This document shows positions 1 to 29,887 of a stretch of 64,000 bases of DNA, piece by piece. The notes beneath the pieces were generated by a model. That model did not search any database and was not told the origin of the DNA. It worked only from the letters and a program-made list of their open reading frames with translations. A program made the translations under genes and the position numbers. This DNA comes from Paucibacter sp. TC2R-5 (GTDB lineage Bacteria; Pseudomonadota; Gammaproteobacteria; Burkholderiales; Burkholderiaceae_C): NCBI RefSeq assembly GCF_025717605.1, contig NZ_JAJIRQ010000005.1, forward strand, positions 124,001 to 188,000, written 5' to 3'. The first letter of the stretch is position 1. Each line of letters opens with the position of its first letter.

Positions 1-47
1 CGCCATTGATGTGCCACTTATGCCTTCCTTATGCAGGAGGTTTCACA

Positions 48-2009: not shown

Positions 2010-2029
2010 GATCAAACCGGAGCAATGCA

Positions 2030-9889: not shown

Positions 9890-10926
9890 CAAGCAGCCCT
9901 CCAAGCATGTGCCATCTCAAAGTCCGCTTTGCGCTCCTGAATGCGTTTCTCGGTGACGGTTGGAGCGCTGATCTTGTAGACATCGAGCTCCGCTCTGTAC
10001 TGAATGAGTAAGTCATGATCGTCCACGAGCAGCTCTTCAAATGCGGGCTGATATTCAGCGGACAGAGATTGCTTTCGGTCACCTGCACGATTGAGCCTCT
10101 TCAAGGCGACATCGATATCTGCCATTGAAATCAGGCCGGGGCTCTTCACAAGAGCCGCCACGAATCGAAAGAACTTCACCAGCACCCCAATCGTGCCGGC
10201 CGAGATCGCGTAGAGCTGTCGAACCAAGGTCGCCAAGGGCACCGGAAAGCTGCACCCGTAGTGCTCGAACTTGGTTACATAAGCTTTGCAGACCCCTGCG
10301 AACTGGGCTCGATCAGGCGGGAGAGCCCATTGGTAGGGCAGAAAGTAGAACGGTGCTCCCGACCTCAAACATAGTTGCTCGTTGGACTCCAGCAGTCGTA
10401 CGAGACGAGGTAGCCCAACGAGAATGACGGTGACGTTGGCTTGTGACTCCATCAGGTCTTTGAACCAGTCCGATGCTTGGCGAGGAGGAACCTTGCTACC
10501 GACGTCGACAAGATGGCTACATTCCTCAAAGACCACCGCTCGCACACCTGCTAGTTCCAACTGTTCATACATTCGCGTGTTTAGCTCTTCTTGGCGAGAG
10601 GCCCGACGAGGGCGAGGAACCTTCAGCGCGCGCAAGACGTGCAAGGGCAAGTCTTTGGGCGAAACACCGGACTTGATCGGCACAAAGAGAACCGGGCAGA
10701 CAAGGCGCCCATCGACTCGCAGTGGCGGGTACTTTTCTTTCAACATTCGGATGATCTCGGACTTGCCCGCGCGTGATGGCCCCACCAAGACCTCGACAGT
10801 CTTTTCAAAGCCGTCCAATGAATCTTTGATAGCGCGGTCAATATGCTGCAAGGCCATGAGCTGAGCGCCATGGTTCACAACCAAGCTTTCTACGTCTTTG
10901 CGCAGTTGAGACAGATTTGTAGTCAC
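9886..10926 (-). CDS. tniB: TniB/TnsC-type AAA+ transposition regulator
   Basis: A 346-residue AAA+ ATPase that would link the target selector to the transposase. Walker A is GPSRAGKSE (about 49-57) and Walker B is AVVFEE (about 130-135), followed by CSHL as in TniB proteins. The start is a GTG at 10926, 10 bases after the tniA stop, and the 3' end overlaps tniQ by 4 bases. Length and motif spacing match the TniB family. It belongs to the tnsA-tniA-tniB-tniQ operon. Confidence 0.92.
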   Translation of the reverse strand: MTTNLSQLRKDVESLVVNHGAQLMALQHIDRAIKDSLDGFEKTVEVLVGPSRAGKSEIIRMLKEKYPPLRVDGRLVCPVLFVPIKSGVSPKDLPLHVLRALKVPRPRRASRQEELNTRMYEQLELAGVRAVVFEECSHLVDVGSKVPPRQASDWFKDLMESQANVTVILVGLPRLVRLLESNEQLCLRSGAPFYFLPYQWALPPDRAQFAGVCKAYVTKFEHYGCSFPVPLATLVRQLYAISAGTIGVLVKFFRFVAALVKSPGLISMADIDVALKRLNRAGDRKQSLSAEYQPAFEELLVDDHDLLIQYRAELDVYKISAPTVTEKRIQERKADFEMAHAWRAAW

Positions 10927-10936
10927 AGGTAACTCG

Positions 10937-12913
10937 TTAAATAGGTGTTCTATGGGTGAATGCCACAGCTAAATCCGGGATGCTGTCCTCGGTGATGTGG
11001 TGGTCGGGTGTCGGCTGTTCTGGCTCGGCCACTGCCAACGTCTTGGGTAGAGGGTCGTTGCGAGCCTTCGTGCTTGCCTTATGCGCCTTGCTATGTTTCG
11101 AGACCTCCTTCGACTTTTCTTTGCGGGATTTCGTCGTCCCGGCCATCGATGCTGTGGCAATGTCCGAGTCAAATTGGTCCGCCGCAGCGTGACCTTGAGT
11201 AGAAAGAAGCTTCTGCTCTTTTCTCCGTTGCTTGGCCTCTTTGAACGAGTAGGCAGGTGTCGTCTCACGAACCTCCGCGTTAATGAGCTTGACCTGCGTA
11301 ACCCCGTCTTTTTTGAGCACCAATATGTACCTGTAGTCGCCCGGGTTCCACAGCACCGGGACTCGTTGGTCAGGGCCGTACTCTTGGATGACCTCCCTCA
11401 GTCCATCACCCTTGAAGTCGAATCCTTCCAACGGCACGCCAGTCTTTGCAGACACGCGTGGTGAACGCCTTAGAAATCGAACATTGGCCCATGCCTGCGG
11501 ACTTGGCGGCAGAGGCAGCGGCTGCTCGGAGCTCAAGTTCTTCCATCTTTGGCACGGGGTGATGCCTTGGTCTTCGCGCAACTCATAGTCGGCGGTGACA
11601 AAGCGTTCCAACTCTTGATGGATCCATTTTTCGAACATGAACCGCACAACCCACCGCTCCACTTCTTCCATAGACATGAGCGGATCGGCACAAGCAACGT
11701 CAGCCGGCCTGGCGCCGTCCACGCCATTGAATCGTGTGCTCCCGGGCAAAATCTCAAGCGCCTCCTTGATCGACCGATTGAACCTTTCAACGAAGGGCTT
11801 GTAATTGGGGCTATGGATGGGGCAGCGTTCCACGTCGATGCAGACACGTGTCAGCATGTCGATTCGTTCGCTCACGTTCTCTGACCCGTTGTCCGTCACG
11901 AGCAGCAATGGCGTACCGAATGGGTCGATATCGCTGTTTATTCGCAGCCGCTGAAAATGCTCGGCCTTCGACCGAACTACTCGCTCGACGCAAGTAAGGG
12001 TGGTCTCAACATCTGGAGCTCCAACCATCAAGACCCAGCCGACGATTACTGAACTGGAGCAGTCGATGGCAATCATCAACCGCAGATCGGTTGAGATACC
12101 CCACGGCGTCTTGCAGGCAAGAGGCAGATGGACTGTGTCCATTTCAATGCGCGACAGGAGTGCGCCGGGGCGAATCCGATTGGCCGCAACCGCCTTAATC
12201 GCTTTGGCGAAGCGTGGGTCGAGCCGCTTGTAATCGAGGTCGCTCGAAACACGGGCCAGAAGAATCGAACGAACCGCCTTGATGCCGATCTTGCTTTTGG
12301 GGTTCGCAGCGTTGAAGAACCCAACCGGCGCCGTCGTGTTGAGATTGCTTGTGAGGGACTTCAGCGTGAAGCGAGAGAAGTCCTGGTAGTACAGGCGCTT
12401 GGCTCTGTTGACGACAAACTCGACAACCGCCTCTGAATACCGAGGTTGCCTGTTTCCCTTCAGATGATCAAGTCGACTCAAACTCTGGCCGTCACGCCGC
12501 TTGCCGAGCAATCGATAGACACTTCGAACCGATGGAATCTTGTGCACCCGGTTCTGGTGGACGATGGGGCCCTCGGCTCTGATTTGCTCGACGGCTTGCG
12601 AGATTGTTAGCCCCCTGGAGCAGAGATCATTGACTCGCTTGATGAGTTTCTTTCGAATGATTTCCACTGCGGCCGCTACGCTTCCCTCCTCGTTCTGCTT
12701 GTTTGGAACGAATCGCGAATCTGCGCCTTCAACCAGCCGAAGGCCTTGATCAATATCGACCGCCAATTCGCTGAAACGCATGAAGCGCACGGACCCGCCG
12801 GCTGAGGTGTCACCCACGGGCGAAACCGTAAAGCCCTGTTCCTTGGGCAAGATATCGAGCACGACCAAGCGCTCGTTGGCCCCAACGATGACGTCATGAA
12901 CGTTTAGGAACAT
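10937..12913 (-). CDS. tniA: TniA/TnsB-type DDE transposase
   Basis: The catalytic transposase subunit, about 658 residues. An N-terminal DNA-binding region with helix-turn-helix segments (about 90-240) precedes the retroviral-integrase fold. The DDE triad is visible in EMDTVHLPL (about D259), LLVTDNGSE (about D341) and PFVERFNRS (about E376). A Mu-type C-terminal barrel and a lysine-rich tail follow. The open frame begins with a TTG at 12928; I prefer the ATG at 12913, but neither has a strong ribosome-binding site. It overlaps the tnsA 3' end. It should bind the terminal repeats and cut 3' ends, giving 5-bp duplications as seen at 5532/27230. Confidence 0.93.
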   Translation of the reverse strand: MFLNVHDVIVGANERLVVLDILPKEQGFTVSPVGDTSAGGSVRFMRFSELAVDIDQGLRLVEGADSRFVPNKQNEEGSVAAAVEIIRKKLIKRVNDLCSRGLTISQAVEQIRAEGPIVHQNRVHKIPSVRSVYRLLGKRRDGQSLSRLDHLKGNRQPRYSEAVVEFVVNRAKRLYYQDFSRFTLKSLTSNLNTTAPVGFFNAANPKSKIGIKAVRSILLARVSSDLDYKRLDPRFAKAIKAVAANRIRPGALLSRIEMDTVHLPLACKTPWGISTDLRLMIAIDCSSSVIVGWVLMVGAPDVETTLTCVERVVRSKAEHFQRLRINSDIDPFGTPLLLVTDNGSENVSERIDMLTRVCIDVERCPIHSPNYKPFVERFNRSIKEALEILPGSTRFNGVDGARPADVACADPLMSMEEVERWVVRFMFEKWIHQELERFVTADYELREDQGITPCQRWKNLSSEQPLPLPPSPQAWANVRFLRRSPRVSAKTGVPLEGFDFKGDGLREVIQEYGPDQRVPVLWNPGDYRYILVLKKDGVTQVKLINAEVRETTPAYSFKEAKQRRKEQKLLSTQGHAAADQFDSDIATASMAGTTKSRKEKSKEVSKHSKAHKASTKARNDPLPKTLAVAEPEQPTPDHHITEDSIPDLAVAFTHRTPI

Positions 12914-13658
12914 AGTTGTGAAATCCAAGAACGCTTAGATGATCCAAGCTGCCGTGGGCAGCGTAGACAGGCATGCGGCGAGATATTCGTTGGCTGAGGT
13001 CCGCCCCAATAACGCCATGAACAAACAGAAGCGGCGCGATATTGATAGGCAGGCTTGCCGCATCCAGTAGTTCACCGAGCCCGATATCGGCTTGCTCTGC
13101 AAGTGATGTCAGCCGATCCAGTACTGCGGGGGATGGCAGTTCATCCTGGCGACTCTTTGCCAATCGCAGCAACGGAGCGTTGTTGATGAGTCCGTGGCCA
13201 GGGTCCGATGGCAACACGATTCGGGCAAAGCTCATGCCGCGCTCCGACAAGAGCTTGGAAACAAGCTGCAGTTTTGCCGTGTAAGCCTGGTCTCCAGGGA
13301 ACTTGTCGCTCTTGGCCTCAAGAATCAACACCCGCGCCACGTGGATGACGGCTTGGAAGTCCGGCGTGTACAGCCATTCGCCAGCGACGACACCCAGCTT
13401 TTTGCGGAATTCCGCGACCTGCTCCTGAGTGGTCAGCAACTGACCGCCGCGTAAATCCAACTTAAACGGCTGGCAACTCAGAGCAGCGACCATCGGGTCC
13501 AAATCAGCCCAGATGGCAACGACTCGCTCGACCGGATCCTCGACCGCAGGGGTGCCGCCAGATTTTTCCGAACGCGTGAATATCGCGCGGCGACCGCTCA
13601 CTCTTCCGAGCGGTCGAACGCCTTGTTGAACTTGTTTTGACGGTCCACGTTTTGACAT
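12894..13658 (-). CDS. tnsA: TnsA-type endonuclease subunit
   Basis: About 254 residues. The central restriction-endonuclease-like fold shows the TnsA metal-binding pattern: a glutamate in AVEDPVERV, the aspartate of YTPDFQ and the E-x-K of LILEAKSDK. This nuclease makes the 5'-strand cuts, allowing cut-and-paste movement, and marks the element as Tn7-like rather than Tn5053-like. The start is the ATG at 13658 (MSKRGPSK); a GTG at 13679 is the alternative. It is the first gene of the tns operon, with 490 bases of non-coding DNA upstream separating it from divergent hsdR. Confidence 0.85.
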   Translation of the reverse strand: MSKRGPSKQVQQGVRPLGRVSGRRAIFTRSEKSGGTPAVEDPVERVVAIWADLDPMVAALSCQPFKLDLRGGQLLTTQEQVAEFRKKLGVVAGEWLYTPDFQAVIHVARVLILEAKSDKFPGDQAYTAKLQLVSKLLSERGMSFARIVLPSDPGHGLINNAPLLRLAKSRQDELPSPAVLDRLTSLAEQADIGLGELLDAASLPINIAPLLFVHGVIGADLSQRISRRMPVYAAHGSLDHLSVLGFHNYVPKRS

Positions 13659-13679
13659 GGGCCGAACGATATTCACCAA

Positions 13680-14170: not shown

Positions 14171-16561
14171 ATGAATAAAAAACTGCTGTCCGAACGAGAC
14201 ATTTGCACCAAGTTCATCGCACCCGCCGTCGTCTCGGCAGGCTGGGATATCCAGCGCCAGGTGCGTGAGGAGGTGAGTTTCACCAAAGGCCGTGTCATCG
14301 TGCGCGGCAAGCTGCACACCCGCGGTAAGTCGCGGCGTGCCGACTTCATCCTTTATCACCAGCCCAATCTGCCGCTGGCCGTGATCGAGGCCAAGGACAA
14401 CACCCACACCGTGGGCGACGGGATGCAGCAAGCCTTGGACTACGCCGAGGCGTTGGATGTGCCCTTCGTGTTCTCCAGCAACGGCGACGGATTCCTGTTT
14501 CATGACCGCACCGGCAACGCGGCCCTCACCGAAACCGAGCTAACGCTGGAGCAGTTCCCCAGCCCCGCCGAACTCTGGCAGCGCTATTGCGCCTGGAAGG
14601 GTTTCGACGCGGAGGCCAGCCAAAAGGTCGAAGCCCCGTACTTCGACGACGGCACCGGCCGCATGCCCCGCTACTACCAGATGAACGCCATCAACCGCAC
14701 GGTGGAGGCGGTCGCACGTGGTCAGAACCGCGTGCTGCTGGTGATGGCCACCGGCACCGGCAAGACCTACACCGCGTTTCAGATCATCTGGCGCTTGTGG
14801 AAAAGCAGGCAGAAGAAACGCATCCTGTTCCTGGCCGACCGCAACATCCTGGTCGACCAGACCAAGAATAACGACTTCAAGCCGTTCGGCGCGGCGATGA
14901 CCAAGATCGCCAAGCGCCAGATCGACACGTCTTACGAGATTTACCTTTCCCTGTACCAAGCAGTGACAGGCGCCGAGGAAGAAAAGAACATCTACAAGCA
15001 GTTCTCGCCGGACTTCTTTGACCTGGTTGTCATCGACGAGTGCCACCGAGGCAGCGCCGCCGAAGACTCGGCCTGGCGCGAAATCCTCGCCTATTTCTCC
15101 AGCGCCACCCACATCGGCCTGACCGCCACGCCCAAGGAGACCAAGGAGGTTTCCAGCATTCACTACTTCGGTGAGCCGGTCTACAGCTACAGCCTCAAGC
15201 AGGGCATCGCCGACGGCTTCCTAGCGCCGTACAAGGTTGTGCGCATCGACTTCGACAAGGACCTGCAAGGCTGGCGCCCACCGGCCGGCATGCTGGACAA
15301 GAACGGCCAGCCCATTGAGGACCGCATCTACAACCTCAAGGACATGGACCGGAACTTGGTGCTGGAAGCCCGCACCCAGTTGGTGGCCGAGAAAATCACC
15401 GCCTTCCTCAAAGCCACCGACCCCTTCCAAAAGACCATCGTCTTCTGCGACGACATCGACCACGCCGAGCGCATGCGCCAAGCCCTGGTGAACCTGAACC
15501 CACAGCGCATTCAGGAGAACCGCAAGTACGTCATGCGCATCACTGGGGACGAGCAGGAAGGCAAGGCCGAACTCGACAATTTCATCAACCCCGAAGAGCG
15601 CTACCCCGTCATCGCCACCACCAGCAAGCTGATGACCACAGGCGTAGACGCGCAGACCTGCAAGCTCGTCGTCCTGGACCAGCACATCAAGTCCATGACC
15701 GAGTTCAAGCAAATCATCGGGCGCGGCACCCGCATCAACGAGGACTACGGCAAGTTCTGGTTCACCATCATGGACTTCAAGAAGGCCACCGAGTTGTTTG
15801 CCGACCCAGCCTTTGATGGCGACCCAGTGCAGGTTTACGAGCCCAAGGGTGACGAACCGCCGGTGCCACCTGACGATGTGCCGGAGCAGCCAGAAGGCGG
15901 CGGGCCTGTCGGCAGCGATGGCGACGACGCACCGCCCGATGACGGCGACGACCTGGGCGGCGGCGCGGGCGGCGGTCGTATCAAATACGTGGTCGGCAAT
16001 GTCTCGGTTTTCGTGGTGGCCGAGCGTGTGCAGTACTACGGCGCCGACGGCAAGCTCATCACCGAGTCCCTGCGCGACTACACCCGCAACTGCGTCACTA
16101 AGCAGTTCGGCTCACTCGACGCCTTCCTGCGCCGCTGGTCTGACGCTGAGCAGAAGAAGGTCATCATCGAAGAGCTGGCCAACCAGGGCGTGCTCTGGGA
16201 AGCGTTGGCCGAAGAGGTCGAAGCCAAGCAGGGTGGAAAGCCCCTCGACCCCTTCGACTTGATTTGCCACGTCGCCTTTGACCAGCCGCCGTTGTCGCGC
16301 AAGGAGCGCGCCGACAACGTCAAGAAGCGCAATTACTTCGCCAAGTATCAGGGGACTGCGCGGCAAGTCCTGGAGGCCTTGTTGGACAAGTACGCTGACA
16401 CCGGCTTGGAGCCCATCGAAGACATCAAGATCCTGCAGCTTGACCCATTCAGTCGCTTTGGTGCGCCCATCGAACTGGTCAAAGCCTTCGGTGGCAAAGC
16501 CGGCTACACCCGGGCCTTAACCGAGCTTGAGTCCCAGCTCTACGAACAACGCCAAGCCTGA
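14171..16561 (+). CDS. hsdR: Type I restriction endonuclease subunit R (EcoEI-like)
   Basis: A 796-residue motor-nuclease of a type I restriction-modification complex. The N-terminal PD-(D/E)xK nuclease shows RRADFILY (D58) and VIEAK (E73, K75). The SF2 translocase follows, with Walker [10 protein letters not shown] (about 192-200), the DECH box (289-292) and the helicase motif [10 protein letters not shown]. An acidic, glycine/proline-rich linker (about 560-600) leads to the EcoEI_R_C domain. It requires HsdM and HsdS, encoded downstream. The start is the ATG at 14171 with GGGAG 12 bases upstream. It is first in a rightward defence operon and appears intact. Confidence 0.95.
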
Positions 16562-16572
16562 ACTGAACTCAG

Positions 16573-17469
16573 ATGACCATCGACAAGCGATTTGCCCTTT
16601 TGGCAGACAACGGCGACATCCTCTTTCCTTACATCAAGCAAGACCGCAGCGGAAGAGAGGGATTTGCTTTGTCCGCCCCAGGCTTGCGGGATGCGAAAGG
16701 TCAAGGTGTCTACACCACTGATCTCAAAGAAGTCGTTCGCCGGCTTGTGTTTGATGGCTGGAAGGTGCGCGCCAAGAGCGAGTCCCAGCCCGGGGAAAAG
16801 TCTCGCGATGGCAGTTATGGCTTGGCCATGAGGGTCATCCCAGCCTATTGGCTGGAACCAGCCTTGCACGATTGGGTTAATGGAGCAGAAATGCAGCCAC
16901 AGGAGGGACTCAAACCTAGCCCCTGGGCAACTAAGTGGCCATTCCCTGCCGATGGAACCTCGTTCGAGGACGAAGAAGACTCCCGAGAAGATTGCGCCGA
17001 CCCAAAGCCCGATCCACTTCAACTGGCTGCCGCCGAAGCGGCCATTGCAGCCGACCCGAAATGCCGCAACGTCCCTGAAACCACCCGGCAATCCTTGGTC
17101 AATGCACGCATCGGCCAGGGTGAATACCGCAACCGGCTGCTGGCGCTATGGGACCGTAAATGCGCAGTGACTGGTTGCGGTTTGACAGACGTTCTGGTCG
17201 CCTCGCATGCGAAAGCATGGGCTGATTCCACCAATGAAGAACGCCTGGACCCTTTCAACGGTTTGTTGCTCTCTGCCGCAGTCGACAAGCTTTTTGACCG
17301 CGGCCTCATCAGCTTCAACAACGACGGCGGCATGGTGTCCAAGTCCTCGGTTTCTGTTGAAGATATGCGTCGCCTGGGCCTCACGCCTGACGCTCGCTTG
17401 AGCAAAGTGCTACCGGCCCACTTACCCTATCTCGCCGCACACCGCATCAAACACGGCTTCAACGCCTGA
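16573..17469 (+). CDS. HNH endonuclease-domain protein within the hsd operon
   Basis: A 298-residue protein. The first half (about 1-120) has no recognised domain. The second half (about 190-245) is an HNH_2-type nuclease: CAVTGCGLTDVLVASH supplies the cysteine pair and first histidine, followed by LDPFNGLLLSAAVDKLFD. It starts 11 bases after hsdR and ends 51 bases before hsdM, so it is embedded in the restriction operon. Such HNH genes recur in type I loci; whether this one is an accessory nuclease or an independent defence gene cannot be read here. Confidence 0.85.
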   Translation: MTIDKRFALLADNGDILFPYIKQDRSGREGFALSAPGLRDAKGQGVYTTDLKEVVRRLVFDGWKVRAKSESQPGEKSRDGSYGLAMRVIPAYWLEPALHDWVNGAEMQPQEGLKPSPWATKWPFPADGTSFEDEEDSREDCADPKPDPLQLAAAEAAIAADPKCRNVPETTRQSLVNARIGQGEYRNRLLALWDRKCAVTGCGLTDVLVASHAKAWADSTNEERLDPFNGLLLSAAVDKLFDRGLISFNNDGGMVSKSSVSVEDMRRLGLTPDARLSKVLPAHLPYLAAHRIKHGFNA

Positions 17470-17520
17470 TGCCCGGTTAGAGCTTTCCCCGTAACAACAA
17501 GAACAACACTTCCATTTCCC

Positions 17521-18990
17521 ATGTCCATTAGCAGTTCCATCAAATCCATCCAAGACATCATGCGCAAGGATGTCGGCGTCGACGGTGACGCCCAGCGCAT
17601 CGGCCAGCTCGTCTGGCTGCTCTTCCTGAAAATCTTCGACGACCGAGAGCAGGAATGGGAACTGCTGGATGACAACTACCGCTCGCCGCTGCCTAAGCAA
17701 TACCGCTGGCGCAACTGGGCGGCCAACCCCGAGGGCATGACCGGTGAGGAGCTGAAGAGCTTTATCGACAACGAGCTTTTCCCCGCGCTGCAAAAGCTGG
17801 AGAGCTACAGCACCACGCCCGCCGCCTTCGTGGTGCGCGGCGTGTTCGAGGATGCCTACAACTATATGAAGTCCGGCCAGCTCATCCGGCAGGTCATCAA
17901 CAAGATTCAAGAAGGCGTCGACTTCAACAAGGCCCAGGAGCGCCACGCTTTCGGTGACATGTACGAGCAGCTGCTGCGCGACCTGCAAAGCGCGGGCAAT
18001 GCCGGCGAGTTCTACACACCGCGTCCGGTCACCGAATTCATGGTCCGCATGGTCGACCCCAAGCTCGACGAAAAGGTGATGGACCCGGCCTGCGGCACCG
18101 GCGGCTTCTTGACCTGCTCCATCGAGCACAAACGCAAGCACTACGTCAAAACGCCCGAGGACGAGCGCACGCTGCAGGCCAGCATCCATGGCGTGGAGAA
18201 AAAGCCGCTGCCGCATCTGCTGGCCACCACCAATATGATCTTGCACGGAATCGAGGTGCCCAACCAGATCCGCCACGACAACACCCTGGCCAGGCCCTTG
18301 ATCGGCTGGGGGCCGAAAGACCGCGTGGACTGCATCGTCGCCAACCCGCCCTTCGGCGGCATGGAAGAAGACGGTATTGAGACCAACTTCCCCGCAGCCT
18401 TCCGCACCCGCGAAACGGCGGACCTGTTCCTCGTGCTCATCATGCATCTGCTCAAGGACGGTGGCCGCGCCGCCGTGGTGCTGCCGGACGGCTTCCTGTT
18501 CGGCGAGGGCATCAAGAGCCGCATCAAGGAAAAGCTCCTCAACGACTGCAATCTGCACACCGTCGTTCGCCTGCCCAATGGTGTGTTCAACCCCTACACC
18601 GGCATCAAGACCAATCTGTTGTTCTTCACCAAGGGCACACCAACGAAAGACATTTGGTTCTACGAGCATCAGTACCCGGCCGGGGTGAAGAACTATTCCA
18701 AGACGCGGCCCATGCGAATTGAAGAGTTCGCGACCGAGCAAGCCTGGTGGGGCAGCGAGGCCGATGGATTTGCAGCCCGTGTCGAAGGCGAGTTCGCCTG
18801 GAAGGTCAGTGCCGAGGACATCAAGGCTCGCAACTACAACCTCGACTGCAAGAACCCGCACGTGGGTGAGCAGGTGAGCCATGACCCGGCGCAGCTATTG
18901 GCGGACTATGCGCGGATGCAGGCCGGCATTCACGGCCTGCGCGAACAGCTGAAGACGGTGTTGTCAGAGGCTTTGGAGCGTGACGCATGA
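17521..18990 (+). CDS. hsdM: Type I DNA methyltransferase subunit M
   Basis: A 489-residue N6-adenine methyltransferase. It has the N-terminal HsdM_N helical domain, the SAM-binding motif DPACGTGGF (about 188-196) and the catalytic motif IV NPPFGG (275-280). With HsdS it methylates the host recognition sequence and is also part of the restriction complex. Its stop overlaps the hsdS start by ATGA (18987-18990). All expected motifs are present, so modification should be functional. Confidence 0.96.
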   Translation: MSISSSIKSIQDIMRKDVGVDGDAQRIGQLVWLLFLKIFDDREQEWELLDDNYRSPLPKQYRWRNWAANPEGMTGEELKSFIDNELFPALQKLESYSTTPAAFVVRGVFEDAYNYMKSGQLIRQVINKIQEGVDFNKAQERHAFGDMYEQLLRDLQSAGNAGEFYTPRPVTEFMVRMVDPKLDEKVMDPACGTGGFLTCSIEHKRKHYVKTPEDERTLQASIHGVEKKPLPHLLATTNMILHGIEVPNQIRHDNTLARPLIGWGPKDRVDCIVANPPFGGMEEDGIETNFPAAFRTRETADLFLVLIMHLLKDGGRAAVVLPDGFLFGEGIKSRIKEKLLNDCNLHTVVRLPNGVFNPYTGIKTNLLFFTKGTPTKDIWFYEHQYPAGVKNYSKTRPMRIEEFATEQAWWGSEADGFAARVEGEFAWKVSAEDIKARNYNLDCKNPHVGEQVSHDPAQLLADYARMQAGIHGLREQLKTVLSEALERDA

Positions 18991-20639
18991 CGGCGTTGGT
19001 GACGGACAACCTTCCACTCGTGTCTGGCGCGCCCAACGGTGTAGCGAAGCTGCGTGAGCTAATCCTGGAATTGGCCATTCGCGGCAAGCTGGTAGAGCAT
19101 GAGTCAGAGGATGCCCCTGCTAGCCAGTTGCTTGCCGAGATTGTGGCTATGCGTGCATCGTCAACACGCGCGAAGAAGGCTGCTGTGGTTTCGGATGACT
19201 CATTGCCACCGTTTGAGATTCCCCGCAGTTGGGCGTGGGTTCGTTTGGGTGAGCTGCTCAGCAAGATCGGTGCTGGTAGTACGCCGCTGGGCGGCAAGCA
19301 GGCTTACGTGGATGTCGGGGTCAAGTTCCTGCGCTCTCAGAATGTGTGGAACAACGGCCTGCGCCTCGACGATGTGGCGCTGATCTCTGCCGAGACTCAT
19401 GCGCGAATGTCCGGAACGCATGTGCAGCCAGGTGACATCCTGTTCAACATCACAGGGGCCTCGATTGGCCGCTGCTCGCTTGTCCCTGATGACTTCGATA
19501 CTGGGAACGTCAGCCAGCACGTGACCATCATTCGCCCAGCGATGGGTGATACGCGGCAATACCTGCATACGGCATTGATGTCGAAGCTCGTTCAAGACAC
19601 AGTGATGTCTGTGCAGGTTGGCGTGTCACGGGAAGGGTTGAGTATTGGAAAACTCGCTCAATTCTTCATACCGCTGCCACCACTTGCAGAGCAACACCGC
19701 ATCGTCGCCAAGGTCGATGAACTGATGGCCCTGTGCGACCGGTTGGAGGCTGAGCAGGCCGACGCCAAGGCCGCCCACGCGCAGCTGGTGGAGGCCCTGC
19801 TCGCCAGCCTCACCCAAGCCCGCGACGCCGCCGACTTCCGCGCCAGTTGGCAACAACTGTCCGAGCATTTCCATACGCTCTTCACCACCGAGGCCAGCAT
19901 TGACGCACTGAAGCAGACGGTGTTGCAGTTGGGGGTTATGGGCAGGCTTGTTCCGCAAGACTTGAATGATGAGCCGGCAACGCAGTTGCTTGCACGACTC
20001 CACAGTAGCAAGAGGGTTCATAGGGCGGAAGGCGAGGAAGCGACACATTCCGACATGGGTTTAGCCTCATCGCTTCCATCAGGATGGTGTTGGGCTAGTT
20101 TCGGCGAAATTTGTCAAATCAAGAGCGAGCTAGTTCGCCCGGAGGACTTCCTGGACAGCATTCAAGTTGCGCCTGATTGCATAGAGAAAGGAACGGGGCG
20201 GCTTTTGGAGCGTCGCACAGTTCGACAGACTGGAATCCGCGGACCAAACAACCGTTTTGTAGCAGGCCAACTCTTGTACTCCAAGATTCGCCCCTCCTTG
20301 TCAAAGGCCGTGTTGGTCGACTTCGACGGGCTCTGTAGTGCAGACATGTACCCAATCAACTCGCACATTGATCCAAGATTCCAGCTGTCAATGATGCTGA
20401 GCGAAATGTTCCTTGCCCAAGTGCGTCTTGCTGAGAATCGAGTCAAGATGCCCAAGTTGAACCAGGAAAGCCTCACTTCCTTCGTTGTTCCATTGCCGCC
20501 GCTTAAAGAGCAGAGCCGGATCGTGGCCAAAGTCGATGAGCTATTGAGCGTTTGCGACCAGATGAAACTTCGTCTGGCCCAAGCCCGACAGCACCACGAA
20601 CAGCTGGCCTCGGTGCTGGTCGAACAAGCCGTCGCCTGA
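18987..20639 (+). CDS. hsdS: Type I specificity subunit S
   Basis: A 550-residue DNA-recognition subunit with the usual two target-recognition domains. The first spans roughly 70-240 and the second 355-520. Each ends in a conserved helical spacer beginning PLPPLAEQHRIVAKVDELMALCD and PLPPLKEQSRIVAKVDELLSVCD respectively (given in parts; the repeated core is RIVAKVDEL). The N-terminus has the ELILELAIRGKLV segment seen in many HsdS proteins and repeated near 305-330. Recognition sequence is unknown. Intact length suggests an active bipartite specificity. Confidence 0.94.
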   Translation: MTALVTDNLPLVSGAPNGVAKLRELILELAIRGKLVEHESEDAPASQLLAEIVAMRASSTRAKKAAVVSDDSLPPFEIPRSWAWVRLGELLSKIGAGSTPLGGKQAYVDVGVKFLRSQNVWNNGLRLDDVALISAETHARMSGTHVQPGDILFNITGASIGRCSLVPDDFDTGNVSQHVTIIRPAMGDTRQYLHTALMSKLVQDTVMSVQVGVSREGLSIGKLAQFFIPLPPLAEQHRIVAKVDELMALCDRLEAEQADAKAAHAQLVEALLASLTQARDAADFRASWQQLSEHFHTLFTTEASIDALKQTVLQLGVMGRLVPQDLNDEPATQLLARLHSSKRVHRAEGEEATHSDMGLASSLPSGWCWASFGEICQIKSELVRPEDFLDSIQVAPDCIEKGTGRLLERRTVRQTGIRGPNNRFVAGQLLYSKIRPSLSKAVLVDFDGLCSADMYPINSHIDPRFQLSMMLSEMFLAQVRLAENRVKMPKLNQESLTSFVVPLPPLKEQSRIVAKVDELLSVCDQMKLRLAQARQHHEQLASVLVEQAVA

Positions 20640-20684
20640 GCGATTGACCCTGCCGCGCCGCCAACCCATCCGAGCCATCTGACC

Positions 20685-21791
20685 ATGCCCATCCAACACG
20701 CCATCTGGCAAGTCGGCCAGCCCGCCACGCAGTTGAAGCAGAGCAAGCTCGGCAGCGAAGCCTTGCTCGAAGAAATGATCGTGCAGGACCCGCGCATTCT
20801 GTCGCCGGCCTGGATGCTGATTGGCCAGCAGGAAATCACCGCGCATGGCGGGCGCATCGACTTGCTGGCCATCGCACCCGATGGCTCGCTGGTGCTGGTG
20901 GAGCTCAAGCGCGACCGCACGCCGCGTGAGATCGTGGCGCAGGCGCTGGACTATGCCTCCTGGGTGGCCGAGCTGGGCGCCGACCGCATCACGCAGATTT
21001 ATGCCCGCTTCAAGCCCGGCCACAGTCTGGAGCAGGACTTCCTGCAGCGCTTCGGCACGGCGCTGGACGAAGACAGCCTGAACCATGCGCACCAAATCAT
21101 CATCGTCGCCGCCGAGCTGGACCCGTCCACCGAGCGCATCGTGCAGTACCTGAACGACCGCGACATCGCCATCAATGTGCTGTTCTTCCAGGTCTTCGTG
21201 CATGGCGACCAGCAATTGCTCAGCCGCGCCTGGCTGATCGACCCCAGCGAAACGCAAGCCAATGTGGCGGTGACCACCGCCAACAGCAAGGGCGCCAAGG
21301 AACCCTGGAACGGCGAGTTCTATGTGTCCTTTGGCGATCAGACCAGCCGCAGCTGGGATGACGCCGTGCGCTACGGATTCATCAGCGGGGGCGGAGGGTC
21401 TTGGTACAGCAAGACTCTGAAGCTGCTTTCACCCGGCGACCGTGTGTGGGTGAACATCCCCAAGCGCGGCTATGTCGGCGTGGGCGAAGTGTTGGAGGCG
21501 GTGCAGCCGGCCAGTGACTTCAGCGTGAACACCGAAAGCGGCGACCGCCTGGCCATGGATGTGTTGAAGCATGGCGAGTTGTACAAAGCAAACTCCGCCG
21601 ACCCAGAGCTGAGCGAGTACTTCGTGCGCGTGAAATGGCTTCACACCTTGCCCGCCGCCCAGGCCTTCAACGAGTTGGGCTTGTTCGGCAATCAGAACAC
21701 GGTATGCCAGCCCACCACGCCGAAGTGGCGGCATACGGTGGAGAGGCTGAAAGACGCATTCAAACTCGAAGGCAAAGAGGGGAACAACTGA
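20685..21791 (+). CDS. NucS/DUF91-like nuclease with C-terminal PUA/EVE-like domain
   Basis: A 368-residue protein. The N-terminal half carries the NucS-type PD-(D/E)xK core: GRIDLLAIAPDG gives the metal-binding aspartate (about D65) and LVLVELKRD gives E-x-K, followed by the conserved Q in EIVAQALDYASWV. The C-terminal half (about 205-300) contains RSWDDAVRYGFISGGGG, a segment LSPGDRVWVNIP and YVGVGEV. This pattern resembles PUA/EVE-type modified-base-binding domains (my reading, not verified). It starts 45 bases after hsdS and its stop overlaps the abi start (TGATG). The architecture suggests a modification-aware nuclease working beside the restriction system (inference). Confidence 0.7.
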   Translation: MPIQHAIWQVGQPATQLKQSKLGSEALLEEMIVQDPRILSPAWMLIGQQEITAHGGRIDLLAIAPDGSLVLVELKRDRTPREIVAQALDYASWVAELGADRITQIYARFKPGHSLEQDFLQRFGTALDEDSLNHAHQIIIVAAELDPSTERIVQYLNDRDIAINVLFFQVFVHGDQQLLSRAWLIDPSETQANVAVTTANSKGAKEPWNGEFYVSFGDQTSRSWDDAVRYGFISGGGGSWYSKTLKLLSPGDRVWVNIPKRGYVGVGEVLEAVQPASDFSVNTESGDRLAMDVLKHGELYKANSADPELSEYFVRVKWLHTLPAAQAFNELGLFGNQNTVCQPTTPKWRHTVERLKDAFKLEGKEGNN

Positions 21792-22798
21792 TGGCTCAGC
21801 CCTATGCCAAACCTTGGCTTAGTGTGGCTCATCAACTCAAGCAGTTAGTTGACCGCGGCATGGTCGTGACTGATAGCCCCAAAGCTCTGGAATGCCTTGA
21901 GCGCATTGGCTACTACAGACTGAGCGGCTACTGGTTTGCGTTCAGAGAGCGCTCAGAAATGTGCTCTGTTTGGGATCCAGGTACCGTGGGAAAGCCGAAA
22001 CAGGTGAAGACAGGGCGTATCCCTCTTGAACCTTTCAAGGCGGGGGCAAGTTTTCAGAATGCGGTTGACCTTTACGTTTTCGATAAACGTCTCCGGTTGC
22101 TGGCCATGGACGCACTAGAACGTATTGAGATCGCGCTGAGGGTAGATATTTCCCACACCTTAGGCGAGATGGATCGTTTTGCTTACCTCAAGCCTGAGTT
22201 TTTCCATGCCTCGTTTGCATACGAGTTGGACCAAAAGTCCGGTTTGACAAAGCACCATGACTGGCTAAACAAGCACGCGAACTTGATCAGTCGATCAAAA
22301 GAAGAGTTCATGCGCCACACCAAAGACAAATATGGCCTTCCTGTTGCCATTTGGGTGGCTTGTGAGGTGTGGGACTTTGGCACCATGTCCACACTCTATG
22401 GCGGCATGAAAGAGTCTGATCAAGACCGCATTGCCCAGAGCTACGGCATTGCAAACGGTCGAACTTTCGCCACGTGGTTGCGGAGCTTGAACTATTTGCG
22501 CAATGTTTGCGCACACCACAGTCGGCTTTGGAACCGCAATATCGTGGACCAACCTAAGCTTCCGCCGGTCACTGAAGTACCCTCATTGGCCAACTTCCAC
22601 GGAGTAGCACATCGACTGGCGCGACCCTTCTTGCTTTTGTGCATGGCGCAACACCTGATGCAGAGGATCAACCCATCATCCACCTGGGGAGCTCGTTTAA
22701 AAGCTCTCTTGTTGAACGACTTCCCACAACTCGATCACCTAGGCTTGAACTTGCTCAGCATGGGCGTAGATCCAGATTGGGAGACTAGGGCGTGGTAA
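21791..22798 (+). CDS. Abi-family (AbiD/AbiF-like) HEPN protein
   Basis: A 335-residue abortive-infection protein. The start is the ATG at 21791, coupled to the preceding stop as TGATG; the longer upstream frame overlaps the nuclease gene. The N-terminus has the Abi_2 signature: the segment LSVAHQLKQLVDRGM, then ALECLERIGYYRLSGYWFAF. The C-terminal half contains RNVCAHHSRLWNR, a HEPN-type R-x4-H RNase motif. Such proteins are thought to cleave RNA and stop growth on phage infection. It is the last gene of the rightward defence operon. Confidence 0.88.
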   Translation: MAQPYAKPWLSVAHQLKQLVDRGMVVTDSPKALECLERIGYYRLSGYWFAFRERSEMCSVWDPGTVGKPKQVKTGRIPLEPFKAGASFQNAVDLYVFDKRLRLLAMDALERIEIALRVDISHTLGEMDRFAYLKPEFFHASFAYELDQKSGLTKHHDWLNKHANLISRSKEEFMRHTKDKYGLPVAIWVACEVWDFGTMSTLYGGMKESDQDRIAQSYGIANGRTFATWLRSLNYLRNVCAHHSRLWNRNIVDQPKLPPVTEVPSLANFHGVAHRLARPFLLLCMAQHLMQRINPSSTWGARLKALLLNDFPQLDHLGLNLLSMGVDPDWETRAW

Positions 22799-22818
22799 AG
22801 ACTTATTGAAGGCGCAAT

Positions 22819-22865
22819 AAAAAACCCCCAAGCAGCTCAATGCCGTAGCATTTCACTGAAGGGGG
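22819..22865 (-). terminator. Structured rho-independent terminator on the minus strand
   Basis: Read on the minus strand, CCCCC (22865-22861) pairs with GGGGG (22829-22825). Inside is a perfect small hairpin AATGC-TACG-GCATT (22852-22839), and a run of six T follows (22824-22819). It would stop leftward transcripts from hamAB, about 365 bases beyond the hamB stop, and keep them out of the converging abi operon. The large two-step fold is unusual for a simple terminator. Confidence 0.55.
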
Positions 22866-23229
22866 CCGTGTTGGGTGTGAATGTAAGTCATGGACGGTAG
22901 CTAAGTCAATACATTAACCTTGTCAACCGGTGCGATTCATCACAGAAGTGGGCTTTACAAACTTGCTTCAGGCAACCTGAAAATTGGTGATGTACCGTGA
23001 GAAGAAATGCATCCAAGCCCACGGTAGGACGCTCAAATAATATGTGAGCGCTTGCCAACATTTCAGCCCAAGAGCAACCCTCTCAAGCGGCGACCAACAG
23101 TTCTGGTTGACGAAGGACGCGCAATCATGAGGAAAGACGCTGTGACCGCTGGGCTGCTGATGACATCAAAGAGGACGAGAACTCCTATTTTGGGAATCCG
23201 CCTAAACCTTCCAGCACAACGGACAACTG
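22866..23229. other. Intergenic region between the abi and Hachiman operons
   Basis: About 360 bases with no convincing gene. A 66-codon frame from a TTG at 23052 runs into hamB on the opposite strand and has no clear start signal; I do not accept it. Minus-strand transcription from hamB must cross this stretch to reach the hairpin at 22819-22865, so it may be a long 3' untranslated region or hold a small RNA. Confidence 0.4.
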
Positions 23230-25863
23230 TCAGATATGTCCGGGAACAGTGAGCTTTGACTCGGCAATAAGACCGAGGCGCCGAAGCTCTCCCAAGATGA
23301 TTGGGCTCAGTGTAGTCTTGGCTGGGTCCAGCTCCCGGAGGAGCTTGCGTGCGCCATCAGCGTTCAACGTTTCGCCGGGAGCGGCGAGAGCCTCAAGCGC
23401 TGCGGCAGCTATACGAGACAAGCCAAGCTCTACGTACGCGGTTCCAGCTTCGGTCGAAACCCCCAGTTCTAGCGCCAGTGCGAACGGGAAAACGTCCTTC
23501 ACGCGGCTCTCGTTCCCAGTCTCACGCAGCGCCAGCAGCAACACGTCGCGATAAGCCTTACCCAACTGAACGAACTGGAAGCGAACGACATCCTCGATCA
23601 GTGAGAACGCCTCATAGATGTGCTGGTTGATTGTCTTAGACTTTTGCGGCTCTTTGCCTTCAGCCAGAGCCGCCTTGGCCTTTCTTTCCTCTGTTCTCGC
23701 CCGGCGGGCTGCCCACATCTTCAGCATTACGGGGTAAGGCATCCCCTTCATCCACCAGACTGCCAATGGAGCTGCAAGCATGCCAAACTTCATCGACTGG
23801 CCGTTGACCTGTTCTACGATGCGGCCGAACAGCTTTTCGTAGTGATCCTTGGGTGCGTCAGCCGGGTTGACTGGGATTAACGACTCGATGGCACCCTCTC
23901 CAATTTTGGCAATTAGGTAGTCATAGAGTCGCCGAAGCCCAAACGGGTCAATAGTCCAGTTCTCCGCAAGGATGTGGTCGGGCAAGTCGATGTTGTTATA
24001 AGCGGTGTCTGCGGCGGCGGCAAGCGCGTCTACAACGGCAGAATCCCATGCTGGCATCACGCGCGTAAGGTAAGGTTTGACATCCTTACGCGCTGCGTGG
24101 GCGACCAGAAGACCAGCACACGCCCGGATTCGGAGCGTTTCAGGTTTGCTGGCTTGCTCTGGAGGGAGCACACCTTCCAGGAGAGCCTGCGCGACCTGTA
24201 AGCCGCTCGTTGTGAGTGTTTCAGCCAAAGCCGGCTCTACCTGAAACGGCACGAACTCATCCATTGGCTTCGTGTCCCAATCCTCGTAGTTGACGAGGAA
24301 CACGTTGCCTACGATGTCATGGTTCAGGCGACCAGCCCGCCCCGCGAAGTTCCATAGAAGAGCTGGATCCAGTGGCTTACCGGCACCTCTCGTTGGAGTG
24401 TCGATAAACACATTTCGTGCAGGCAGATTTACGCCTTGTGCGAGAGTTGTCGTGCAAACCAAATAACTAATGCCGCCTTCGTCTTGCTTGAATGAAGCTT
24501 CGATGGCTTCGCGAAGTAGGCTGGGCATACGCCCGTAGTGGTACGCAACTCCTTGTTGCACCATCGAGGCCAGTTGGTACTCAGGATGCACGTGCTCTCG
24601 TATGAATTTTGCCAAATCTTCAAGAGATGCGTCTCGGAGTACCCCTTGCTTTGCCTTGAGCATGCCTTCCAAAAGCGCTGCGGTCTTCTCAGCTTCGCGC
24701 GGCCCCGTCTCGTACAGCAAAGACCCGTCGTCTCCACCCAACTCTACGGCCACGGTAGCCAGACGGCTGGTCTTGCTTGACAGAGAGCGCTCGACGCGGA
24801 TTTCTCCTAGTAGCTTGCGTACGCCATTGCGGCCCATCAAGGCCATTTCGAGTTGCAGTGGCTTGCCGCGCACCTTGCTTAAAACGATACGGTTTTGTTG
24901 AACGGGCGATAGTCTCGTCGAGAGAGGCACCAAGTCGACCACTCCAAAGGACCTAGCCAAGGCCTGCATACCCACGGCGCCCGGGGCCAGCAAAATGACC
25001 TTCGTCTTCGACGAGGCTTGGGCTAGGCGTTCCAGGCAGTCCTGAAGAATCATGCCGCGCGCATCGTCCGCGATGTTCTGGGCCTCATCCACCACAACGA
25101 CATCGAACAAAAGATCTTCTGATGCCAAAGAGATAAGGGTGCTGAGGCGCTCCTGGGTTAAGACGAAGATTTGCTTTGGCCGCTCCAATTGGTCAAGCGA
25201 GGGAATAGAAGAGATTCGGACGTCGGTACGCCCGATGAAACGGGCTTGCAGCTTGCCTTGGACCTCGGACAACAGCGCGCGGGTTGGCGTCACGTAGACC
25301 GCCGTGAACGTCGACATGGATTCGGCGAGTCGGCAGAGGTGTTCCAGTACCAAGAAGGATTTGCCGGCAGAAGTCGGTGCTGTGATGACCTGGGCAGCCT
25401 TTGCCGACAGGTTCTGCCAAACACGACGCTGGTATGCCGTGAGTGCAATAGTCTCTTCGCCAATCTGCACGCTGCTAGCGCGTTCGGAGACACGGCGGTT
25501 GATGAGCCCAAGCAGGGTGTCATCACCTTTGCCGATGTTCTGCTCCGCGAATTTCAAACTGGGAAAGTTACCCAACTCGCTTAAGAGCCCAAGCGCGCGT
25601 TCGCGTGCGTGCCCATCGTCGGTGACCAGAAGGGCCTGGATTGCAATCTCTTGAGCTTGGCGATGCAGCCCTTCATCGTCCGTTTGAACGAAGACTTCGG
25701 CGCAGTAGAGGAGCTTCGCGAGGTCGTCATTGCTGACTTCTTCAATCTCCGGAGCTTTGACCAAGGTCTTGGCGACGCCGGCAGATTGGAGGCCCAAGAG
25801 CAGCGTCCAGTATTTCTCGTTGTCAGTAAACCTCTTCGATAGCTCTAGTGCAAAAGAGCTCAT
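23230..25863 (-). CDS. hamB: Hachiman defence helicase HamB
   Basis: An 877-residue SF2 helicase. Walker A is TAPTSAGKSF (about 161-170), the Walker B/DEAQ box is VVVVDEAQ (about 255-262), and the C-terminal helicase core includes TTTLAQGVNLP and the arginine-finger motif NFAGRAGRL. A helical N-terminal region of about 130 residues precedes the helicase core and a 350-residue C-terminal domain follows it. It overlaps hamA by ATGA (25860-25863). In Hachiman, HamB senses or processes damaged phage DNA and releases the HamA nuclease (established for characterised homologues). Length and partner gene fit that system. Confidence 0.9.
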   Translation of the reverse strand: MSSFALELSKRFTDNEKYWTLLLGLQSAGVAKTLVKAPEIEEVSNDDLAKLLYCAEVFVQTDDEGLHRQAQEIAIQALLVTDDGHARERALGLLSELGNFPSLKFAEQNIGKGDDTLLGLINRRVSERASSVQIGEETIALTAYQRRVWQNLSAKAAQVITAPTSAGKSFLVLEHLCRLAESMSTFTAVYVTPTRALLSEVQGKLQARFIGRTDVRISSIPSLDQLERPKQIFVLTQERLSTLISLASEDLLFDVVVVDEAQNIADDARGMILQDCLERLAQASSKTKVILLAPGAVGMQALARSFGVVDLVPLSTRLSPVQQNRIVLSKVRGKPLQLEMALMGRNGVRKLLGEIRVERSLSSKTSRLATVAVELGGDDGSLLYETGPREAEKTAALLEGMLKAKQGVLRDASLEDLAKFIREHVHPEYQLASMVQQGVAYHYGRMPSLLREAIEASFKQDEGGISYLVCTTTLAQGVNLPARNVFIDTPTRGAGKPLDPALLWNFAGRAGRLNHDIVGNVFLVNYEDWDTKPMDEFVPFQVEPALAETLTTSGLQVAQALLEGVLPPEQASKPETLRIRACAGLLVAHAARKDVKPYLTRVMPAWDSAVVDALAAAADTAYNNIDLPDHILAENWTIDPFGLRRLYDYLIAKIGEGAIESLIPVNPADAPKDHYEKLFGRIVEQVNGQSMKFGMLAAPLAVWWMKGMPYPVMLKMWAARRARTEERKAKAALAEGKEPQKSKTINQHIYEAFSLIEDVVRFQFVQLGKAYRDVLLLALRETGNESRVKDVFPFALALELGVSTEAGTAYVELGLSRIAAAALEALAAPGETLNADGARKLLRELDPAKTTLSPIILGELRRLGLIAESKLTVPGHI

Positions 25864-26864
25864 GGCTTGGCCGCCTTGGGGACATAGCCCATCACGTCAT
25901 AAAACAACTTGCGCAGCTCGTCGACGTCAGGGACGACAACGAAGTAAAGGAGACACTTGTTGGCATCGGCGCCGTGTGCGGTAAGGTGCTTGATAGCTGC
26001 TTTTTGGTGGTGGTCAAGGTCCTGCTTATAAACACTGGCCAGCTCCTTCTCATGAAAACCAGGCAGTTGCTGCTTCTCCACAGGAGGGAGGTCCTTGAAT
26101 AGCTTTTCGTCCGAGTACAGGATTACACCCACATAGCGCTCACGCCTTGGCGCCTCGTCTGGTGAGGCCATGATGTTGAAGTACTGCAGCGCAACTTCCC
26201 GACTCTTCGGATCCAGAGTGTCGAAATTGCCCAGATCCCTGACGAGCGAGTACTCGCGCTTGTACTGCTTCTTGTTGGATGTGAACTCGGCGACGGATTT
26301 GGCAAAGTCTGCTACTCCGGCATTGGCCGTCTGGCTGAGCTTGGATTCCAGGAAATAGAGCATCAACCAGCCATCCTCAACTGCTGCGTGGATGCCATCA
26401 AGGCCATGCACCGGCATGTTGTTGTTGGTCTTGAGGGACATCTTCGCCGCCAGCTGCGCCGCACCTAGCTGCTCGATAGCAATGCAGTAAGCCAGAAGCT
26501 CGCCCACTTCACTGGATCGCTGTGGGAATTTCTCGTTGAATTCAAGAAAAGCGTCTCGTGTCGACTCTGCTATCAGGAGTGCCACGCTCAGGTCACCCGG
26601 CGGCAACGCGGCCGTCTGCTCGCTGAATTCGAGCCGGCGCTTGCGCGAGAGTGCGTAGTTAGCTGCCCGGCTCCAAAGGTACCGCGATAGGCTGGCCACG
26701 TTCGCCAGGTTCTCCTGGAGGCGTACGTGCATCAACGTGGTCGCAGGCTGCGAGGGCTCGGCGGACGCCGCAGTATGGGCGACATATTTTGAGAGATCGA
26801 CCCGGTCTTTCAGGGCAACTAGGTCAGCTTTGAGTTGTGCCAGTCCTTCGTCGATCTCTCCCAT
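25860..26864 (-). CDS. hamA: Hachiman effector nuclease HamA (DUF1837)
   Basis: A 334-residue protein matching the DUF1837 pattern: SSEVGELLAYCIAIEQLGA (about 118-136), KTNNNMPVHGLDGIHA (D156) and LMLYFLESKLS, which gives the E-x-K pair E173/K175 of a PD-(D/E)xK nuclease. In studied Hachiman systems this E-S-K pair is catalytic and HamA degrades DNA once HamB is activated. It is first in the two-gene hamA-hamB operon, which reads leftward, away from gyrB. All key residues I can check are present, so the system looks intact. Confidence 0.88.
   Translation of the reverse strand: MGEIDEGLAQLKADLVALKDRVDLSKYVAHTAASAEPSQPATTLMHVRLQENLANVASLSRYLWSRAANYALSRKRRLEFSEQTAALPPGDLSVALLIAESTRDAFLEFNEKFPQRSSEVGELLAYCIAIEQLGAAQLAAKMSLKTNNNMPVHGLDGIHAAVEDGWLMLYFLESKLSQTANAGVADFAKSVAEFTSNKKQYKREYSLVRDLGNFDTLDPKSREVALQYFNIMASPDEAPRRERYVGVILYSDEKLFKDLPPVEKQQLPGFHEKELASVYKQDLDHHQKAAIKHLTAHGADANKCLLYFVVVPDVDELRKLFYDVMGYVPKAAKP

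Positions 26865-27233: not shown

Positions 27234-27234
<1 letters not shown>
27230..27234. repeat. Target-site duplication, right copy (AAAAT)
   Basis: AAAAT lies directly after the right end. It matches 5532-5536. It overlaps the last base of the gyrB TGA, so the insertion point is at the stop codon itself and leaves the reading frame intact. Confidence 0.75.
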
Positions 27235-29804
<2,570 letters not shown>

Positions 29805-29843
29805 CTAACGTGGGCCAAAACTCAAGCCCTTCAAAAGCGCACA

Positions 29844-29861: not shown

Positions 29862-29887
29862 CTGGTTGAAACTCTGCTGTGGCCGGG

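Follow-up and report, generated by a model that had tools for sequence, protein, structure and literature searches.

Which of the genes that accompany a type I restriction-modification system belong with it, and which have only been inserted among its genes? This question is raised by a 64,000-nucleotide (nt) stretch of DNA from Paucibacter sp. TC2R-5 (contig NZ_JAJIRQ010000005.1, positions 124,001 to 188,000), hereafter called the window, to whose numbering all positions refer. Six tightly packed genes, all on the plus strand, occupy positions 14171-22798: hsdR, an HNH nuclease gene, hsdM, hsdS, a gene for a NucS-domain nuclease and an Abi_2 gene. A first-pass annotation had described them as one defence operon in which nuclease and HEPN genes accompany a type I system, and had proposed that the last two form a two-protein module in its own right. 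Comparison with related loci confirmed the operon and gave another answer for the module: the nuclease is a frequent, detachable accessory of type I operons and not a core subunit, while the Abi_2 gene, judged by the places at which it occurs, looks like an exchangeable passenger and not like a fixed partner of the nuclease. The genes are as follows.

14171-16561, plus strand: hsdR, type I restriction subunit of the EcoAI/EcoEI family, 796 amino acids
16573-17469, plus strand: gene for an HNH nuclease, between hsdR and hsdM, 298 amino acids, HNH_2 at residues 197-249
17521-18990, plus strand: hsdM, N6-adenine methyltransferase subunit, 489 amino acids, motifs DPACGTG and NPPF
18987-20639, plus strand: hsdS, specificity subunit, 550 amino acids, two recognition domains
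20685-21791, plus strand: NucS-like gene, N-terminal NucS-type PD-(D/E)XK nuclease and predicted C-terminal EVE/YTH-like domain (residues ~203-360), PADLOC candidate PDC-S11
21791-22798, plus strand: Abi_2, Abi_2/AbiD HEPN-family protein, 335 amino acids, motif R237-N-x3-H242

Coordinates, strand and a profile match for every gene bear out the six-gene arrangement. The genes are separated by 11 nt (hsdR/HNH), 51 nt (HNH/hsdM) and 45 nt (hsdS/NucS-like), or overlap by 4 nt (hsdM/hsdS, ATGA) and 1 nt (NucS-like/Abi_2, TGATG). Scans for promoters and terminators gave matches at chance level only. HsdR scored 1208.8 bits against the EcoAI equivalog NF046051 (curated cut-off 550), which places it in the EcoAI family, and its nuclease motif (D58..ExK), Walker A motif at 195 and DECH box at 289 are intact. 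A match of HsdM to N6_Mtase (276.4 bits, cut-off 20.4) with intact NPPF and DPACGTG motifs, and one of HsdS to Methylase_S (66.5 bits, cut-off 22) in two stretches, identify these proteins as type I subunits. The HNH protein matched HNH_2 with 42.9 bits (cut-off 21) and the Abi_2 protein its family profile with 185.4 bits (cut-off 25.6). Catalytic motifs are intact in the HEPN protein (RNVCAH) and in the NucS-like nuclease (D59, E73, K75) as well. Compared with EcoAI/EcoEI-family systems, the window thus shares HsdR, HsdM and HsdS with their motifs and adds the HNH, NucS-like and Abi_2 genes. The presence of a type I system with nuclease and HEPN genes embedded in it is therefore well supported by profiles and motifs.

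Relatives of the NucS-like protein in named genomes were taken as the best 80 of 126 proteins matching short peptide patterns of the window protein, a selection in which distant members are under-sampled. The hsd search profiles were built from the EcoAI family and may miss other hsd families, so that each count of unlinked loci is an upper bound. Among the 64 relatives with at least 7.5 kb of upstream sequence, 43 carry the complete set of hsdR, hsdM and hsdS upstream in the same orientation, and 45 have at least one hsd gene there (two of them only a partial set). Clustering of neighbouring genes gave hsdS at 46 loci, hsdR at 44 and hsdM at 43; the next cluster was found at 10. The gap between hsdS and the nuclease gene is no longer than 60 nt in 23 of the 50 loci with hsdS upstream. 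Distances between the nucleases correlate with those between the HsdM proteins of the same 40 loci (r=0.53), a value reached in none of 2000 permutations. In a tree of 59 nuclease sequences, 42 hsd-linked and 17 not, the linked sequences stand in divergent clades; the link requires at least 12 gains or losses, with a mean of 15.0 for shuffled labels.

In other samples the gene is patchily distributed. PDC-S11 was detected in 8 of 250 genomes of the same order, strongly (>500 bits) in five and weakly, over the nuclease half, in three. Four of the five strong carriers, the Paucibacter genome itself included, have an EcoAI-type hsdR less than 10 kb away, and the fifth match lies on a 3.5-kb contig. 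Four nuclease loci of this sample (L100-L103) appear to be identical records to L011, L023, L036 and L019 and are not independent of them. Six of 43 plasmid records with the nuclease gene were examined: one carries hsdM/hsdS directly upstream and one downstream, in one the gene lies close to BREX genes, in one an N6 methylase gene follows 1.9 kb downstream, and two show nothing comparable. Of eight relatives on viral contigs, six have hsdS upstream (L118-L122, L124); a set of nuclease and hsdS may travel on phages or phage-like islands.

Several observations speak against a close tie to type I genes. By the EcoAI-based profiles 19 of the 64 relatives lack any hsd gene, and hsdM-like genes lie downstream instead in one locus (L050) and in a Deinococcus plasmid. 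Only 4 of 41 places with an EcoAI-type hsdR in the order sample have the nuclease. Moreover, the distance correlation between HsdM and HsdR reaches 0.95 over the 40 loci, compared with 0.53 between nuclease and HsdM. Because the latter value is far below the former, the nuclease is no core type I subunit, and with 19 relatives unlinked and two beside a partial set it does not depend on adjoining hsd genes. Some relatives without hsd genes stand behind other defence-type genes, namely a giant helicase with an MTES_1575 nuclease (L055) and an Eco57I-type methylase (L069, and L070 by clustering). A further relative lies near BREX genes in a haloarchaeon (L127).

At the other 27 of the 50 loci that have an upstream hsdS, more than 60 nt separate it from the nuclease gene. 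Plus-strand frames fill 22 of these gaps, one is dominated by the minus strand and four are ambiguous. Genes in this slot were scanned in 13 of the 27 loci, and at 11 of these Pfam or PADLOC matched a defence-type gene, as listed here.

L014: Septu PtuA, 670 bits
L011 and L013: Schlafen-like
L025: SIR2
L002: NYN with OST-HTH (Pfam only)
L016: OLD-like
L009 and L049: AAA
L077: DRT1a, 1375 bits
L076: GmrSD-like
L010: PDC-S52/DUF6988

Neither the slot gene of L064 nor the second slot gene of L023 had a Pfam or PADLOC match. The first slot genes of L023, L029 and L043 cluster with the PtuA of L014, and the slot of L018 holds an Abi_2 gene whose product is 64% identical to the window Abi_2. In L002, the closest relative within the genus, an HNH gene has the same place, the NYN gene precedes the nuclease gene and Abi_2 is absent. 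This variety suggests that type I operons with this nuclease exchange effectors at the spot between hsdS and the nuclease gene.

The pairing of nuclease and Abi_2 did not recur. Directly behind the nuclease gene, Abi_2 was found in none of the 80 relatives, 71 of which have at least 1 kb of downstream sequence. Two of them have an intact Abi_2 at another place in the operon, between hsdR and hsdM (L010) or between hsdS and the nuclease gene (L018). The latter comes nearest to the pair, with Abi_2 in front of the nuclease gene at a gap of 230 nt, and in L009 this position holds an Abi_2 fragment. No locus other than the window showed the 1-nt overlap. Abi_2 occurs in 18 of the 250 genomes of the order, at 19 places, and a second genome of the genus also has such a gene; the nuclease was found at none of the 18 other Abi_2 loci, searched up to 9 kb on each side, shorter at contig ends, with the own genome excluded. 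A nuclease-Abi pair conserved apart from hsd genes, as the first-pass annotation had envisaged, was thus not encountered, and the nuclease recurs with hsd genes instead. Of that reading, the type I system with its inserted nuclease and HEPN genes stands and the separate NucS-Abi module falls.

Abi_2 itself is found in type I operons as well as far from them. Four of the 18 order-sample loci have hsdM/hsdS-like genes (L082, L083, L086, L087), and 14 lie away from hsd genes by the EcoAI-based profiles. Six of 289 plasmid records with Abi_2 were examined. Among close plasmid relatives the gene lies between hsdS and hsdR in Methylobacter (annotated) and Methylomonas (by profiles), and the Sinorhizobium, Rhizobium, Xanthomonas and Microvirga loci show no hsd genes nearby. 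Within type I operons at least five positions are occupied: behind the nuclease gene (window), between hsdR and hsdM (L010), between hsdS and the nuclease gene (L018), between hsdM and hsdS (L082, L086) and between hsdS and hsdR (L133, L137). From these varied positions, with and without hsd genes, it follows that Abi_2 is a mobile gene which enters type I operons at several places, the coupling in the window being one instance. Residues R237 and H242 of the HEPN RxxxxH motif are kept in 19 of 19 aligned Abi_2 proteins, in line with membership in the Abi_2/AbiD/AbiF family, and the protein is probably an abortive RNase.

The NucS-like protein matched PADLOC PDC-S11, a candidate family whose name occurs in two papers, with 537 bits over residues 1-361. 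Its match to Pfam NucS_C was marginal (24.4 bits, cut-off 24), and the same profile was found in 54 of 54 aligned members at E-values up to 10, the best being 2.9e-10. Residues D59, E73, K75, Q86 and Y90 are invariant in all 54. Profile comparison with NucS gave an E-value of 2.5e-05, with the match confined to NucS residues 125-203. A full-length model computed from the 54 sequences (predicted local distance difference test, pLDDT, 81.6; predicted template modelling score, pTM, 0.54) has an N-terminal domain that superimposes on NucS/EndoMS 2vld with a Z of 11.2 (root-mean-square deviation, rmsd, 2.7; 108 aligned residues). According to its conserved catalytic residues this domain probably cuts DNA. 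Full membership in NucS/EndoMS was rejected, as the NucS equivalog reached 35 bits where 216 are required. With NucS/EndoMS the protein shares the nuclease domain and its catalytic residues, whereas the domain architecture is different.

The C-terminal domain was modelled alone from the relative of L076, which is 56% identical to the window protein there (pLDDT 85.9, pTM 0.83). Fold comparison returned PH1033 (Z 9.8), the EVE-HNH enzyme VcaM4I (Z 9.6, rmsd 3.7, 132 aligned) and YTHDF2 (Z 9.3). The best 50 matches comprise 43 YTH domains, VcaM4I and six structures of hypothetical proteins, with a Z of 8.4 at rank 50. Those six belong to five different proteins, PH1033 (twice), MJECL36, 2ar1, 2eve and 2g2x, all of which we take to be EVE-type structures. 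One of them, 2eve, is termed an EVE domain in the accessible text of PMC7897488. The full-length model agrees, its C-terminal part matching PH1033 with a Z of 10.4 (rmsd 3.0, 119 aligned) and VcaM4I with a Z of 9.6 (rmsd 3.7, 127 aligned). Tryptophans W208, W224, W255, W318 and W348 are kept in 54 of 54 aligned members and W240 in 53.

Other results weigh against this assignment. No EVE, YTH or PUA profile appeared among the 25 Pfam families listed, out of 27 in all, for the 54 aligned members. When 11 household EVE proteins from relatives were compared by hhalign, no match was obtained, the alignments being shallow, and a second type of household EVE protein (n=3, reading frames unconfirmed) gave no profile alignment with the NucS-like protein either. 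Z values of 9-10 are only modestly above the 7-8 reached by unrelated models, and a common fold by itself is no proof of function. As sequence searches are blind to the likeness, the PUA-like EVE/YTH reader fold is assigned from predicted structure (Z 9.3-9.8 for the domain alone, 9.6-10.4 for the full-length model). The 'PUA' label given to this protein at first pass is thus borne out by the predicted fold and not by sequence profiles. We read the C-terminal domain as an EVE/YTH-like modified-base reader; on the strength of the models, the protein would read a modified base.

The third accessory gene lies in the gap between hsdR and hsdM. HNH_2 occupies the C-terminal half of its product, and the N-terminal ~145 residues have no assigned fold. 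The same gap holds an HNH gene in L002 and in plasmid pPAG5 (L132). The HNH proteins of the window and L002 align well in the HNH half only (54% over 153 residues), and their N-terminal halves differ. A search of 250 genomes for the N-terminal domain gave, outside the own genome, a single weak relative, and a search of viral contigs gave none for the whole protein. The protein is presumably a further DNA nuclease. The operon on pPAG5 is apparently decaying; it consists of hsdR (in pieces), HNH, hsdM, hsdS (in pieces), a NucS-like gene (two frames) and a Zorya gene.

Parts of this arrangement have precedents. Like the window protein, the predicted EVE-, YTH-like- and DCD-PD(D/E)XK enzymes described by Bell, Wolf and Koonin (2020) join a PUA-like reader to a PD(D/E)XK nuclease; the accessible text of that paper (PMC7641849) also places EVE and DCD proteins next to type I systems and proposes that unmodified and modified DNA alike are restricted by these loci, but it names no NucS/DUF91 nuclease (DUF91, 0 occurrences) and no slot. 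VcaM4I, characterised as an EVE-HNH modification-dependent endonuclease according to the accessible text of PMC7897488, likewise combines a nuclease with an EVE reader and matches in fold (Z 9.6), but its nuclease is of the HNH type and its reader N-terminal; no sequence match to the NucS-like protein was found. In Thermococcus gammatolerans a YTH reader is part of the restriction protein YTH-McrB, with the McrB GTPase in place of a fused nuclease, and the YTH domain of an archaeal McrB binds DNA containing N6-methyladenine (6mA), as stated in the accessible parts of PMC7680126 and PMC12707154. HEPN genes in restriction operons, EVE/YTH domains fused to PD(D/E)XK nucleases and EVE proteins beside type I systems are hence already published, and the mechanism proposed below follows published logic. 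We did not find in print a NucS-type PDC-S11 protein with an EVE/YTH-like domain, its recurrent place behind hsdS, or the slot. A literature search, outside which most subscription papers and all supplements lay, found no paper that links type I operons with PDC-S11 or with a fusion of NucS and EVE, and the term 'PDC' is absent from the 2021 PADLOC paper.

The explanation that we favour, with slightly more confidence than doubt, is that of an EcoAI-family type I restriction-modification operon with accessory defence genes inserted at three places, in which a type IV-like, modification-dependent nuclease would complement the type I enzyme and Abi_2 would be an exchangeable passenger. HsdRMS would methylate its own sites and cut unmodified incoming DNA. 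The EVE/YTH-like domain of the NucS-like protein would flip out and read a modified base, upon which the PD-(D/E)XK domain would cut, so that phage DNA with bases modified against the type I enzyme would be restricted by the NucS-like protein. Abi_2 would most likely cleave RNA and halt growth once restriction fails, and its overlap with the nuclease gene would be a local accident of insertion. An improbable refinement holds that the YTH-like domain reads 6mA, the mark written by HsdM. The nuclease would then tolerate the HsdM pattern of the host and cut DNA with 6mA at foreign or half-methylated positions, or it would respond to a disturbance of that pattern by phage methylases or anti-restriction proteins.

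A guard function in the manner of PrrC is unlikely, if by no means negligible. By this analogy HsdRMS would keep the Abi_2 HEPN RNase, perhaps also the nuclease, inactive; once a phage anti-restriction protein acts or the complex is lost, the RNase would be freed and growth would stop. A HEPN gene does lie inside the hsd operon of the window, as it does in the type I locus of PrrC with EcoprrI, and the spread of Abi_2 over at least five type I operon positions suggests repeated gain in this context. The accessible text of PMC3710099 describes HEPN genes, Abi2/AbiD included, in restriction-modification operons as a possible second line by analogy with PrrC; that of PMC12707154 likewise treats such genes as a second line and presents PrrC and PARIS as guards. 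Unlike PrrC, however, the window Abi_2 has no ABC domain, nor any other sensor domain by Pfam, and with 14 of 18 order-sample loci and close plasmid relatives free of hsd genes by the EcoAI-based profiles, HsdRMS is not needed to silence the family.

It is rather improbable that Abi_2 is an AbiF-like system with an RNA antitoxin which landed here by chance and is independent of the operon. Family profile and HEPN motif are shared with Abi_2/AbiD/AbiF proteins, and an Abi_2 protein of Clostridioides difficile is toxic and neutralised by an upstream non-coding RNA according to the accessible text of PMC12373285. In the window, however, the 1-nt overlap leaves no upstream intergenic space and the gene is coupled to the hsd operon. 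No Rfam match was obtained up to an E-value of 5 in 20500-23300, a search that a divergent RNA would escape, and the 166 nt around and behind the Abi_2 stop codon fold no better than shuffled sequences (z -0.47).

A role of the NucS-like protein in repair or as a mismatch endonuclease, by which it would mend breaks or mismatches caused by restriction, is very improbable. The nuclease domain is closest to NucS/EndoMS, but the protein stays far below the equivalog cut-off (35 against 216), its domain order differs, with the nuclease first and the EVE/YTH-like domain behind it, its distribution is patchy (8 of 250 genomes, three of them weak matches over the nuclease half) and its gene occurs in the neighbourhood of hsd or BREX genes and on viral contigs. 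Finally, a two-gene unit of nuclease and Abi_2 RNase, acting as sensor and effector or as toxin and antitoxin, is scarcely credible, since against the TGATG overlap, the order Abi_2-nuclease with its 230-nt gap in L018 and the fragment in L009 stand 0 of 80 relatives with Abi_2 behind the nuclease gene (two intact copies and one fragment lie elsewhere) and 0 of 18 other Abi_2 loci with the nuclease.

The operon lies in an island with further mobile and defence genes. Directly upstream, at 8027-13679 on the minus strand, are Tn7-like genes coding for TnsA-like, TnsB-like (rve), TniB/TnsC-like and TniQ proteins. A 17-nt repeat present at 13701 and again at 13860 may mark the transposase sites at one end; the hsd operon would then lie outside the element. 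The pattern TGTAARAYTTTCTKACA has two sites, only between tnsA and hsdR; as it was derived from these same occurrences, their count carries no weight as a test, and no left transposon end was found. Downstream and convergent with the type I operon is a Hachiman system (23230-26864, minus strand) with hamB at 23230-25863 and hamA at 25860-26864, overlapping by 4 nt. The island adjoins gyrB-dnaN-dnaA (window 27234-32795). A Sulfitobacter locus (L064) has a similar layout of tnsB-tnsA, hsdRMS, one gene, the NucS-like gene and gyrB-dnaN-dnaA, and gyrB lies near the nuclease gene in L005, L008 and L022 too. The site behind gyrB may be a hotspot for Tn7-like elements. A close relative, G524 (L142), matches window positions 17-2285 and the gyrB flank and has ~11 kb of other genes between them; as it differs between these flanks, the stretch 2285-27227 of the window is variable.

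Phages modify their bases to evade type I enzymes, and a nuclease partner that cuts modified DNA would close that escape route within one operon. For the candidate family PDC-S11 this proposes a testable role as a modified-base-reading nuclease allied to type I restriction. If the reading of 6mA were true, such type I operons would carry a cutter of unmethylated DNA, a cutter of wrongly methylated DNA and a nested slot exchanging whole defence genes. The slot between hsdS and the nuclease gene, where defence genes appear to be exchanged, would help in the discovery of new defence genes.

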